A DNA stretch of 64,000 nt from Bacteroidota bacterium (GTDB taxonomy: Bacteria; Bacteroidota; Bacteroidia; Chitinophagales; LD1): contig CANJLD010000017.1 in assembly GCA_947475165.1 (NCBI GenBank), forward strand, positions 1 through 64,000, given 5' to 3'. Positions 13,524 through 51,467 of this stretch are shown here, one piece after another. The number at the start of each line of letters is the position of its first letter. Position 1 is the stretch's first letter. Below the pieces are notes generated by a model. It saw only the letters and a list, made by a program, of their open reading frames with translations. It did no database searches and was not told where the DNA came from. The position numbers and the translations under genes were made by a program.

Positions 13524-13648
13524 GAATGACGCCCGCGAACGCATGGATGGTTTCCGCGGACGCATGGATGGTTCCCGCAAACGCATGGCGGATTCCCGCA
13601 AATGCATGGATGGTTCCCGCGGACGCATGGCAGTTGCACGCAAACTGT
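13524..13648. repeat. Tandem array of 21-bp units (array 1)
   Basis: About five and a half units of 21 bp, each built of CGCGGACGCATGG then ATGGTTCC. Period 21 is a multiple of three, so both strands give spurious frames (repeats of RMDGSRG on plus, REPSMRP on minus), but no start context, homologous protein or domain supports a gene. It lies in the 487-bp gap between the convergent cytochrome and dehydrogenase genes. Confidence 0.85.
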
Positions 13649-24411: not shown

Positions 24412-25461
24412 TTATAGCTCCCCCAAAGTAGAGATGGTTTCAAATTCTTTTAAATCGCAAATCATATCGTAACTGTACCGGATAAACATTTTGCCGATAT
24501 CGTAATGTTCAAACGGTTTTACTTTTTCTCCTAATGCCATTTTTAATAACGCTTCGGGATGATTTTGTCCTGCACCAACTGCCAGATAAATCCATGCCGG
24601 TGTTCGCGGATTTATTTCAATCAGGAAATATTCTCCATCATTCGTTTTTATCATTTCCAATTCGCATGGTCCGCGCCATTTACTATTGCGAATCAGTTTG
24701 CGGGTAATGTTCAGTAGTTCTTCGTCTTCCAAAGTAATGCCTGCCCATGCTTTTCCTTTATCGGTAATTACCTGCTTGCGCATAGGCACTGCACCGATTG
24801 TGTTTCCGTTTCCGTCACCGAGAGCGGTAACGTTTACTTCAGTACCATAAGTGAATTGCTGAATGATAATCGGCAGCCCCCACTTGGCACTTATCTTATT
24901 AAAATATTGAGCGGCTTGCTCCGGTGAATAGGCTACTGATGCATCATAAAACTTTCCTTTCACTACCAACGGATAAGTAAAATCTTTAGTGAGCGAAGCA
25001 ATTTCTGCCGTGCTGAAAATCATTTTGCTCTTCGGCACTTTAATACCGTATTTCTCGCCAAAATCCGAAAGATTGGCTTTGTGCCGCTCTTCAAATTGCT
25101 CCATAGTCGGTAGAAAACTTTTGATGCCCAATTCTTTTTCAAGCACCGGTGCCATCTTTATAAAGTTGTAAAGTTCTGCATCAAAATTCGGGATGATAAC
25201 ATCAATCTTCTCTACGCTGTTGATGTGTTTCAGCCTTTCCATAATGCTGGCAATACCGGCTGACGGAAGTGGAATCTGATAAGTCTTTGCCACCAGTTCG
25301 TGCATATAAATACCCGGCTCCAGTGCATCGTAACTTAAGCCTATAATGCGCACATCATACTCTTTGCTATCGAGCAGTCCTCTTATTACAGGAATGCCTG
25401 GACCCGGACTGTCTACATTGTTGAGACCGGTTACCGCTACCGTTACTTTTTTACTTGGCAT
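24412..25461 (-). CDS. ATP-grasp ligase, carbamoyl-phosphate-synthase/biotin-carboxylase-like
   Basis: A 349-residue ATP-grasp enzyme. The N-terminal Rossmann-like preATP-grasp part begins KKVTVAVTGLNNVDSPGPGIPVIRGL. The ATP-grasp part has the lysine of PLVVKGKFYDASVAYS, the adenine-side QQFTYGTEVNVTALG and the Mg-binding signature GPCELEMIKTNDGEYFLIEINPRTP (E, E and N ligands). The family joins a carboxylate to an amine or thiol through an acylphosphate. Its start overlaps the PqqD-like gene by 11 nt. Substrates are unknown; the neighbouring decarboxylase could supply an amine. Confidence 0.85.
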   Translation of the reverse strand: MPSKKVTVAVTGLNNVDSPGPGIPVIRGLLDSKEYDVRIIGLSYDALEPGIYMHELVAKTYQIPLPSAGIASIMERLKHINSVEKIDVIIPNFDAELYNFIKMAPVLEKELGIKSFLPTMEQFEERHKANLSDFGEKYGIKVPKSKMIFSTAEIASLTKDFTYPLVVKGKFYDASVAYSPEQAAQYFNKISAKWGLPIIIQQFTYGTEVNVTALGDGNGNTIGAVPMRKQVITDKGKAWAGITLEDEELLNITRKLIRNSKWRGPCELEMIKTNDGEYFLIEINPRTPAWIYLAVGAGQNHPEALLKMALGEKVKPFEHYDIGKMFIRYSYDMICDLKEFETISTLGEL

Positions 25462-25702
25462 CGGCTTCGGTTAGTTGAAGTTGCTCGAGCATTTTAGTAA
25501 AGTCGTAAAAATCTTTTTCTACCGAATCGGCATCGGTGCTGTAAGAATCAAGCAGATGTTTCTTGATTTTTTCGTGCGGCTCGTTGTCTTTTAGCTTGCG
25601 CAAAATTTCTAAACCAATAGGGTTTACCGAAAATGAATCACCGGTGCTGGGGTTAAACACAAAGCCGGTATCGCTGAGTGCTATGTTTTTCTTTATCTTC
25701 AT
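25451..25702 (-). CDS. PqqD-like small protein (possible peptide-binding/RRE fold)
   Basis: 83 residues from MKIKKNIALSDTGFVFNPSTGDSFSVNPIGLEILRKLKDN, with the PqqD-family pattern: a beta hairpin, then a winged-helix-like part with GxxIxxxL and a C-terminal helix (VEKDFYDFTKMLEQLQL). PqqD-like domains bind precursor peptides or carrier substrates in RiPP and related pathways. It is the first gene of the operon and overlaps the ATP-grasp gene by 11 nt. The start at 25702 is preferred over 25732, because the upstream ten residues overlap the likely promoter. No precursor peptide gene is visible nearby. Confidence 0.75.
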   Translation of the reverse strand: MKIKKNIALSDTGFVFNPSTGDSFSVNPIGLEILRKLKDNEPHEKIKKHLLDSYSTDADSVEKDFYDFTKMLEQLQLTEADAK

Positions 25703-25728
25703 AATTATTGATTTGAACCTTTGACGAC

Positions 25729-25770
25729 ACAAAGATGTACTGGTTTGCGCAACCTGCGTTACAAGATTTG
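25729..25770 (-). promoter_or_regulatory. Possible promoter of the PqqD-like/ATP-grasp operon
   Basis: On the minus strand TTG followed after about 22 nt by TACATCTTTG resembles the Bacteroidota promoter with a two-base insertion in the -7 element. It is the only fair candidate between the operon and the 21-bp array. Confidence 0.35.
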
Positions 25771-25878
25771 GAGAAAAAGTTACAGGATTAAACGGCCGGT
25801 TGGTTATTTAACCTGAGTTGAACATTGCCGGCAACAAAAAAGAAATTCTAGCAAACGATTATTTTGTGGCTAAAAACA

Positions 25879-26109
25879 GCGTTTGAAGTAATTTCATAGG
25901 CGGTTAAAGCAATTTTGCAGGCGATTAAAGCTACGTCCTAGGCAGTTAAAGCAATTTCCTAGGCGTTCGAAGCCACGTCCTAGGCGGTTAAAGTAATTTC
26001 CTAGGTAGTTAAAGCTACGTCCTAGCCGGTTAAAGTAATTTCATAGGCGGTTAAAGCTATATCCCAGCCGATTAAAGCAATTTTCTAGGCGTTAGAACGC
26101 ATTTTCAAG
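25879..26109. repeat. Tandem array of about eleven 21-bp units (array 2)
   Basis: Eleven head-to-tail units of exactly 21 bp, each about GCGGTTAAAGC, a variable six-base middle, then CTAG or CAG. The middles mostly alternate between an AATTTC form and an ACGTCC/ATATCC form, giving a 42-bp higher-order unit. All frames contain stops (TAG, TAA or TGA), so it does not encode protein. It fills most of the 633-bp gap between the divergent PqqD-like operon and the kinase-like gene. Confidence 0.9.
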
Positions 26110-26321
26110 TGGTGTAAAATGGCATTTTTACGCTGTTTTGTCCATTATTTTGGCTTTTTGGTGTTTTTTAAAGAGTTTACAACATTAGTCTGTGCCTTCA
26201 CAAAAAATGCTGTGTTGTAGCTTGAACAACTGGAATAAAGACTTCCGAAATTTTAGAAACTTCGGAAGTCTTTCAGGCTTACTGTTTGTTGAAGCGGTAT
26301 ATTGCCGAAGCATCAGAACAA

Positions 26322-26335: not shown

Positions 26336-27394
26336 ATGAAAAAGCCGAAGAGCTATCAGCAGCAGATTATCACAAAAAAGAAAACCATCTATCCGGTTAA
26401 TAAAGAATTGCGGCAATACCTGGAAGGTAATGCCCGTGAAATAAAACTACCGGTTACCTATTCCGACCTTAAACATTTCAGCGGCAGCATTACCATTCGC
26501 GATAAAAAAGGAAATGATACCCTTTGGGAAGCCGCCATGTATTCGCCAAACGAACTGTCGCACATTCACGAAGGTCTCAAGCAGATTTACTCCATTCTAA
26601 AATCCGGTGGCGATGCATCGGTGCATACGCACTTGCATGTGGAGCGGATTGACTACTGTACCTTTGGCAACTCCAATCCTTTCCGCATTAAAATTGTAAA
26701 CGACTTTAACGATAACTACGATTACTTCTACATCAAACAAGCCGATGCCTCGCGCATTTACGGTTTAGAACTGGAGCATATTCTTTCACCCGCCCGCATC
26801 AACTATTTTGTAGATGCACATACCTTGGTTGAAGAACACATTGCCGGTATTCCCGGTGACCAATTCATTCAATATTATTTAGAGAATAAAGAATTCAACA
26901 AAGTGCGCATTGCCAAAGAGTTTGTAAAATTCAACGAGCGATGCTTCATCCGTTTGTTGGGCGATATGCGCTCGTATAATTATGTGTTTGATATTACTCC
27001 CGACTTTGAAGAAGTGCAGTTCCGCATTCGCCCCATAGATTTTGACCAGCAGAGTTATGAAGGCAAACGTACTTTGTATCTCCCGCAGTTCTTTAAAGAG
27101 AATGCCGTGCTGGTGCAACTCACCTTAGATTTACTATCACCCGAAACAATCCGTCAGTATCAAAAGGAAGAAAGAACACTCATTGCGCGCAGAAGTATTT
27201 CTGCTCATCACCGGCTCGACCATTTGATTGATGTAATGGACCGCGATATTATTTCGCCAAAAGAAAAAGTAATTCAGCTGCGCGAAGAACTGGCAGAGCA
27301 TTACAAAGATGTTTCGTTTCACGATTGCACCAGTATGGGCGAATTGGTGAGAAATTGTTTGCGGTTGTTGACAGAAGAGATTCAACAGAAATAA
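26336..27394 (+). CDS. Uncharacterised protein with kinase-like motifs
   Basis: 352 residues from MKKPKSYQQQ; the 48 codons upstream (from 26192) are rejected because the -7 element lies in them. No known name. The motif order resembles a protein-kinase/aminoglycoside-phosphotransferase fold: DYFYIKQ (possible ATP lysine), LVEEHIAGIPGDQF (hinge-like), LGDMRSYNYVFD (catalytic loop with D and N) and RPIDFDQQSY (DFG-like). The N-terminal part (SVHTHLHVERIDYCTF) is unlike kinases. It is divergent from the PqqD-like operon across the tandem array and is followed by an M20 peptidase gene. The kinase assignment is inference. Confidence 0.6.
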   Translation: MKKPKSYQQQIITKKKTIYPVNKELRQYLEGNAREIKLPVTYSDLKHFSGSITIRDKKGNDTLWEAAMYSPNELSHIHEGLKQIYSILKSGGDASVHTHLHVERIDYCTFGNSNPFRIKIVNDFNDNYDYFYIKQADASRIYGLELEHILSPARINYFVDAHTLVEEHIAGIPGDQFIQYYLENKEFNKVRIAKEFVKFNERCFIRLLGDMRSYNYVFDITPDFEEVQFRIRPIDFDQQSYEGKRTLYLPQFFKENAVLVQLTLDLLSPETIRQYQKEERTLIARRSISAHHRLDHLIDVMDRDIISPKEKVIQLREELAEHYKDVSFHDCTSMGELVRNCLRLLTEEIQQK

Positions 27395-51064: not shown

Positions 51065-51141
51065 GGGTATTGCGTTTGGCTTTTAAAAGTAGAAATAAAA
51101 ACGAACAAACAACCCCGAAAGGGTTTTAAACCCTCTCGGAG

Positions 51142-51442
51142 TTTCCGCATTGGCTCCGTAACTCTTACGGCAAGTATTTCTGTACTCCAATTGCCTCCGC
51201 AACTCTTACGGCAAGTATTTCCGTTCTCCAACCGCCTCCGTAAGTCTTCCGCTAAGTATTTCTGTTCTCCTAATGCCTTCGTAACTCTTACGGCAATATT
51301 TTCAGTTCTTCTAATGCGCCCGTAACTGTTACGCTGCCTGTTCCGGTTCTCCAAAATGTTCCGTAACTGTTACGCTGGCATTTACTGCTCCTCCAACGCT
51401 TCCGTAAGTCTTACGGAGGCATTCGGAGTACTCCGAATGTTA
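51142..51442. repeat. Tandem array of seven 41-bp units with internal palindrome (array 3)
   Basis: The word CCGTAA (or a one-base variant) recurs at 51156, 51197, 51238, 51279, 51320, 51361 and 51402, exactly 41 bp each time. Each unit contains a palindrome CCGTAACTCTTACGG (or CCGTAAGTCTTACGG) and an about 26-bp tail GCAAGTATTTCTGTTCTCC... that is also conserved. A period of 41 shifts the frame each unit, so no protein is encoded. It lies between the LRR gene and the esterase gene and accounts for most of a 403-bp gap. Confidence 0.9.
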
Positions 51443-51467
51443 AAAACGTTAAAATTTAAGGGGGGAG

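Follow-up and report, generated by a model that had tools for sequence, protein, structure and literature searches.

Bacterial minisatellites are usually seen as slippage products or typing markers. REP/BIME repeats are intergenic, dispersed and palindromic, and plasmid replication iterons and partition-site arrays consist of tandem sites about two helical turns apart, which are bound on one face and usually adjoin the gene of their own binding protein. The closest described systems are the BrickBuilt MITE/minisatellite and the 464/PgRS of Porphyromonas gingivalis, with repeats of 23 and 41 nt; promoter activity of BrickBuilt was reported in E. coli, and no matches outside P. gingivalis were reported (PMC4596501). 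They comprise two repeat families, each with a single sequence, for which no link to a gene family was reported (PMC4596501).

In the present study, we analyzed a tandem array in a window of 64,000 nucleotides (the whole stretch presented here). Like BrickBuilt and 464/PgRS, the array belongs to a member of the Bacteroidota, is intergenic, and consists of a leader, tandem units and a tail, in multiple dispersed copies, possibly with short inverted ends as in those elements; the 41-nt period of 464/PgRS is also one of the periods of this genus. The alignment of five copies revealed the BrickBuilt type of organization, with dispersed intergenic copies and a conserved leader and tail. The BrickBuilt 23-nt repeat sequence was not found in the window array, which has a period of 21 bp and a different unit. 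Unlike the two P. gingivalis families, this genus holds tens of mostly unrelated array families on a ladder of 21, 41-43 and 84 bp, and orphan gene families carry arrays on their 5' side, the period tracking the protein clade. As in iterons and partition arrays, the units of this class were spaced by whole helical turns; in contrast to them, the arrays occurred about once every 33 kb of chromosome, with a sequence that differed from locus to locus. No Rep or Par protein was found at the arrays: the window array is flanked by a PqqD-domain gene and a conserved gene of unassigned function, and it had no match in the phage and plasmid collections, so an origin from either source was rejected. The arrays resemble REP/BIME in being intergenic and dispersed and in having some palindromic units, but they are tandem and period-locked, share no single conserved sequence and, in most cases including the window array, lack dyad symmetry. 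No published description of such an array class was found in the open-access literature.

Across this genus, the spacing of the arrays was kept far better than their sequence, and in one gene family it tracked the protein clade. Conserved spacing with free sequence suggests a DNA-recognition system in many locus-specific versions. At slightly below even odds (about 45%), we propose that the window array is a solo, dispersed intergenic element of ~300 bp, in a class of putative arrays of one-face binding sites, through which a sequence-specific protein would act on the facing gene. The binding-site array was preferred as the simplest account because the spacing is fixed, the sequence is free, the cores are conserved and the changes are coordinated. 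The period ladder, the 5' linkage to orphan gene families and the agreement of period with protein clade also speak for it; these features are observations, whereas binding, cooperativity and a regulatory effect are inferred. The element comprises a leader, then 11-12 units of 21 bp, then a T/G-rich tail, and the rule of the class is a spacing fixed at two or four helical turns with a sequence particular to each array family. The array might thereby form a platform of sites on one helix face, to which the protein would bind cooperatively. This platform would act on whichever gene has its 5' end towards the array; in the window this is the pqqD cluster, and elsewhere the target appears clearest for orphan helical-bundle/beta-sandwich genes. 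Which protein reads the spacing is a directly testable question.

The window array and its dispersed copies

TRF at 25879-26091 detected both a period of 21 (10.1 copies, score 195) and a period of 42 (4.6 copies, 82% matches, score 243). Read in register, the array comprised 12 units at 25876-26127, of which the first and last were degenerate, and the unit core was C.AG[GC]C.....RAA. At lags of 21, 42 and 84 bp, the identity across the array was 0.69, 0.77 and 0.73, respectively; the higher value at 42 bp indicated that the alternation of two middles (CAATTTC and CTACGTC) was real. Stop codons were present in all six frames, with 3-12 per frame. These results bore out the sequence-only reading, which had described a 21-bp tandem array with 42-bp dimers, degenerate units alternating between two middles and no open coding frame; the count is 12 units when the degenerate ends are included.

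The genome contains five dispersed copies of this element, the window array among them, and the ends were conserved across the copies. The leader on the + strand (25857-25875; TTATTTTGTGGYTAAAAA...), which was conserved in all five genomic copies, runs into AAAACAGCGT (25873-25882). The T/G-rich tail (26128-26163, + strand) was also conserved in the five-copy alignment and holds ACGCTGTTTT (26130-26139), which matches the leader in inverted orientation over 10 bp; the match is perfect in the window copy and weaker in the others. A blastn search of 40 relatives found no copies of the family, the best match being short and at chance level (E 0.004). Four of the five copies were exactly 230 bp long and differed at 15-35% of positions, with at least 119 substitutions and 0 indels, and the window copy was longer than these four by exactly one 21-bp unit.

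The substitutions were unevenly distributed over the unit. With a mean of 5.7 between-copy changes per column, unit columns C1, A3, A12 and A13 showed none and C6 showed one, and the core formed two patches separated by about one turn of the helix. Column 2 was A in every full unit of copy C9; in the window copy it was mostly T, and in copies C10, C11 and C15 mostly G, while the units otherwise retained their individual identities. Such concerted switching suggests that a trans-acting factor recognizes the units. The leader faced the 5' end of a leftward gene in all five copies, an orientation with a p of about 0.03-0.06, which is weak evidence at n = 5. Whereas the window copy is solo, the copy on contig C10 (L257) lies on the 5' side of a gene of family B.

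The main rival to the binding array is a MITE-like mobile minisatellite similar to BrickBuilt, in which a non-autonomous element with a leader, a tail and short inverted ends spread a tandem repeat, the array was resized by slippage and any regulation was incidental. We regard it as somewhat unlikely. The five dispersed copies with conserved ends, the partial complementarity of leader and tail, the gain or loss of whole units and the close P. gingivalis parallel with repeats of 23 and 41 nt (PMC4596501) all fit such an element; slippage, however, does not account for the absence of indels through at least 119 substitutions. The two accounts are compatible, as a mobile element may carry a binding array.

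We also considered a short gene on the - strand, remnant or active, in which 21 bp would encode a heptad repeat of seven codons. Frame -0 had the lowest pN/pS (0.54), few stops (0-3 per copy) and an F.RLG pattern. This gene is scarcely credible, in view of the stops in three of the five copies and the coordinated synonymous changes. In addition, sister arrays of 41 and 43 bp cannot hold a frame, and coding was therefore excluded as the cause of the spacing.

Flanking genes and the facing gene

The array lies between a divergent gene pair. On the - strand, a PqqD-domain gene (25451-25702; Pfam PF05402, E 1.2e-6), with its 5' end facing the leader, heads a leftward cluster that also includes genes for an ATP-grasp protein, a PLP decarboxylase and a urea-transporter/M23 protein. 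On the + strand, the gene at 26336-27394 is conserved in Bacteroidota and has no assigned function; it had been called kinase-like from its sequence, a label left unsupported by the absence of any Pfam match. A terminator-like hairpin with 17-nt arms, 94% complementary, separates the array from the + strand gene (26237-26273); it is strong, and a two-way terminator is possible.

To evaluate the sequence-only proposal that the array regulates both flanking genes, we compared relatives that carry the same genes. In the sister genome G017, the region upstream of pqqD (25703-25791, - strand) was conserved up to about 25791 (about 60-85 bp before pqqD), where the homology stopped short of the array and gave way to other DNA without an array. 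The pqqD cluster occurred without an array in G017, G010 and G007, which also counts against the binding array. Ladder-period arrays were absent on either side of the homologues of the + strand gene (0/17 loci) and of the ATP-grasp gene (0/18 loci). An absence in such relatives had been named as the refuting outcome, and regulation of both flanking genes as a conserved feature was therefore not supported and was rejected. Within this species, the window array could act on the pqqD cluster. Better supported is an association with just the leftward gene, which is seen in all five copies, and, for the class as a whole, with orphan gene families. As for the proposal of multiple protein-binding sites, such sites are compatible with the two conserved patches of the core and with the lack of indels, and it is their role at both flanking genes that lacked support.

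A genus-wide class with a fixed period

We sampled the genome in stretches totaling 1.26 Mb including the window, part of which was picked for holding window-family copies. The base period was 21, 41-43 or 82-84 bp in 38 of the 41 non-coding arrays, and the three off the ladder were a 34-bp array, a tandem tRNA pair and a coding repeat at a contig edge. A tandem pair of serine-tRNA-like genes at L270:15656-15858 was flagged as a 99-bp repeat. In the sister genomes, ladder arrays accounted for 9/9 in G010, 4/4 in G017, 3/6 in G007 and 1/1 in G009. Across 80 loci (1.37 Mb) from other Bacteroidota, the non-coding arrays had other periods, mostly 14 bp; the exceptions were one locus that is in fact part of G010 and one array of 22/63 bp. 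These results indicated that the array class is genus-specific, recurring in sister genomes and not seen among the other Bacteroidota sampled. The earlier equation of 21 bp with two helical turns was strongly supported and holds beyond the window array, for a whole class of arrays at 20.5-21.5 bp or multiples thereof. Membership of this class explains why one such array, taken in isolation, resembled an element of a divergent promoter.

The arrays formed small sequence families, some common to several loci or species, and most were mutually unrelated. A single motif common to all arrays was rejected, as the consensus was weak (z about 4 above permuted units), and general dyad symmetry was rejected, as only a few arrays showed dyads; that dyads are not general, and are absent from the window array, also speaks against the binding array. 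Related arrays were found at non-orthologous loci, as the MITE-like account would have it. Terminal inverted repeats were rejected as a rule, as the ends across the class showed weak complementarity: 8 of the 55 arrays were above the 95% null level versus 2.75 expected, so the complementary ends that such an element calls for are not general. Slippage also leaves the period lock at 21/41-43 bp over largely unrelated sequences unexplained. Overall, the neighbouring gene ends facing the arrays were 5' in 55 cases and 3' in 50, and many arrays were solo or between convergent genes, a pattern that is unlike promoter control and counts against the binding array.

Across 51 arrays, most of them unrelated in sequence, a purine/pyrimidine component of 10.5 bp was detected (z 4.5 versus the intergenic control), which counts in favour of the binding array. 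Together with the universal two-turn spacing, it would also fit a structural role, in which the arrays supply phased curvature or flexibility to a general nucleoid protein and no sequence-specific binder is involved. We consider this role improbable. The A/T and AA/TT signals gave no periodicity at 10.5 bp in the arrays, and phased A-tract curvature was rejected on this ground; moreover, the invariant cores, the coordinated base switches and the locus-specific palindromes point to sequence recognition. A generic form of the nucleoid-protein site suggested by the sequence-only reading is likewise not favoured, because the array sequences are locus-specific.

Two other arrays of the class occur in the window. 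A 21-bp array at 13532-13645, unrelated in sequence to the window array, lies in a convergent gap and is crossed by a short open frame starting with ATG. A 41-bp array of palindrome plus linker at 51137-51445 is solo here, although arrays of its type occur 5' of genes of family F. It has 35-nt inverted ends (51136-51170 and 51402-51436), another feature in keeping with the MITE-like account. This array is a solo relative of those 5' of the family-F genes at L350 and L356, and a further relative at L275:1811-2170 has a compensated stem. Elsewhere, one intergenic position by a MenE-like gene held a 21-bp array in one species (L074:19313-19522) and an unrelated 41-bp array in another (L090:11881-12296). 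A duplicated two-gene unit (L067:9218-11056 and L256:8022-9719) had an array between its genes, and the two arrays were re-homogenised independently and were one unit apart in length.

Orphan gene families and the period of family F

Arrays were often on the 5' side of several uncharacterised protein families. Because these families were first noticed through their arrays, the linkage was tested on homologues from an independent protein search; the families themselves were defined by profile and pairwise searches. For families B and F, a ladder array was present within 600 bp on the 5' side in 36 of the 49 loci, compared with 3 of the 49 on the 3' side (p 3e-12), and one further locus had a 5' array of another period. 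For several of the loci that lacked the array, the wrong reading frame had been picked. Among the control genes, the count was 0/35. In family C, the linkage was observed in 3/11, the closest members only, and array linkage is thus not universal.

In family F, the period was associated with the protein clade. Units were 42 bp in 10 of 10 loci of clade F1 and 41 bp in 12 of 13 loci of clade F2 (Fisher p about 3e-5, from slightly different counts), while the unit sequences differed between loci. Slippage, as assumed for a MITE-like element, does not account for a period that tracks the downstream protein clade. Each unit consisted of a palindrome, the arms of which changed together between loci, and a linker common to close relatives; examples of the palindromes were CCGTAA/TTACGG, CCGTGG/CCACGG and TCGCAT/ATGCGA. 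The asymmetries comprised 45 G-T and 39 A-C. Because there was no excess of G-T over A-C, the palindromes fit double-stranded DNA sites rather than RNA stems.

These stems bear on the further alternative that the array is transcribed and works as tandem RNA structures, which appears highly improbable. The compensated stems of the family-F arrays would suit it, and the five-copy consensus fold of the window family was below the column-shuffled null on the + strand (z -4.0). The covariation term, however, was unfavourable (+3.76), the family-F stems showed no G-U excess (45 vs 39), the family-B arrays had no excess fold, and the comparison with Rfam yielded no family and a single sub-threshold miRNA match, to the 26235-26273 hairpin. 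Tandem RNA hairpins were rejected, as both a wobble excess and covariation support were absent.

Structure models of the linked orphan proteins revealed a helical bundle and a C-terminal beta-sandwich (in one, the bundle had low confidence; in one, the mean pLDDT was 91). These proteins matched no Pfam, PHROG, NCBIfam or PDB family, except for a CarboxypepD_reg domain in some, and the models gave weak cupin/jelly-roll-like structural matches at most. The matches of the helical part were almost wholly confined to this genus. The family-B profile contained no segment of sufficient conservation for scanning viral contigs. No DNA-binding fold was seen among the array-linked proteins, and no binder was found, which stands against the binding array. 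Returning to the binding array, a tentative extension is that expanded orphan gene families each bear a 5' array, the spacing of which (21, 41 or 42 bp) is set by the protein clade while the array sequence diverges at each locus. This would represent a new pairing of cis-element and protein, in many orthogonal pairs, and the solo arrays, including that of the window, would be members captured by other genes or left over beside them. At L262:15995-17329, an open frame runs through a 42-bp array (RRISEKGNRANDIV repeats) into a family-F gene, and automatic annotation would call a false repeat protein at this locus.
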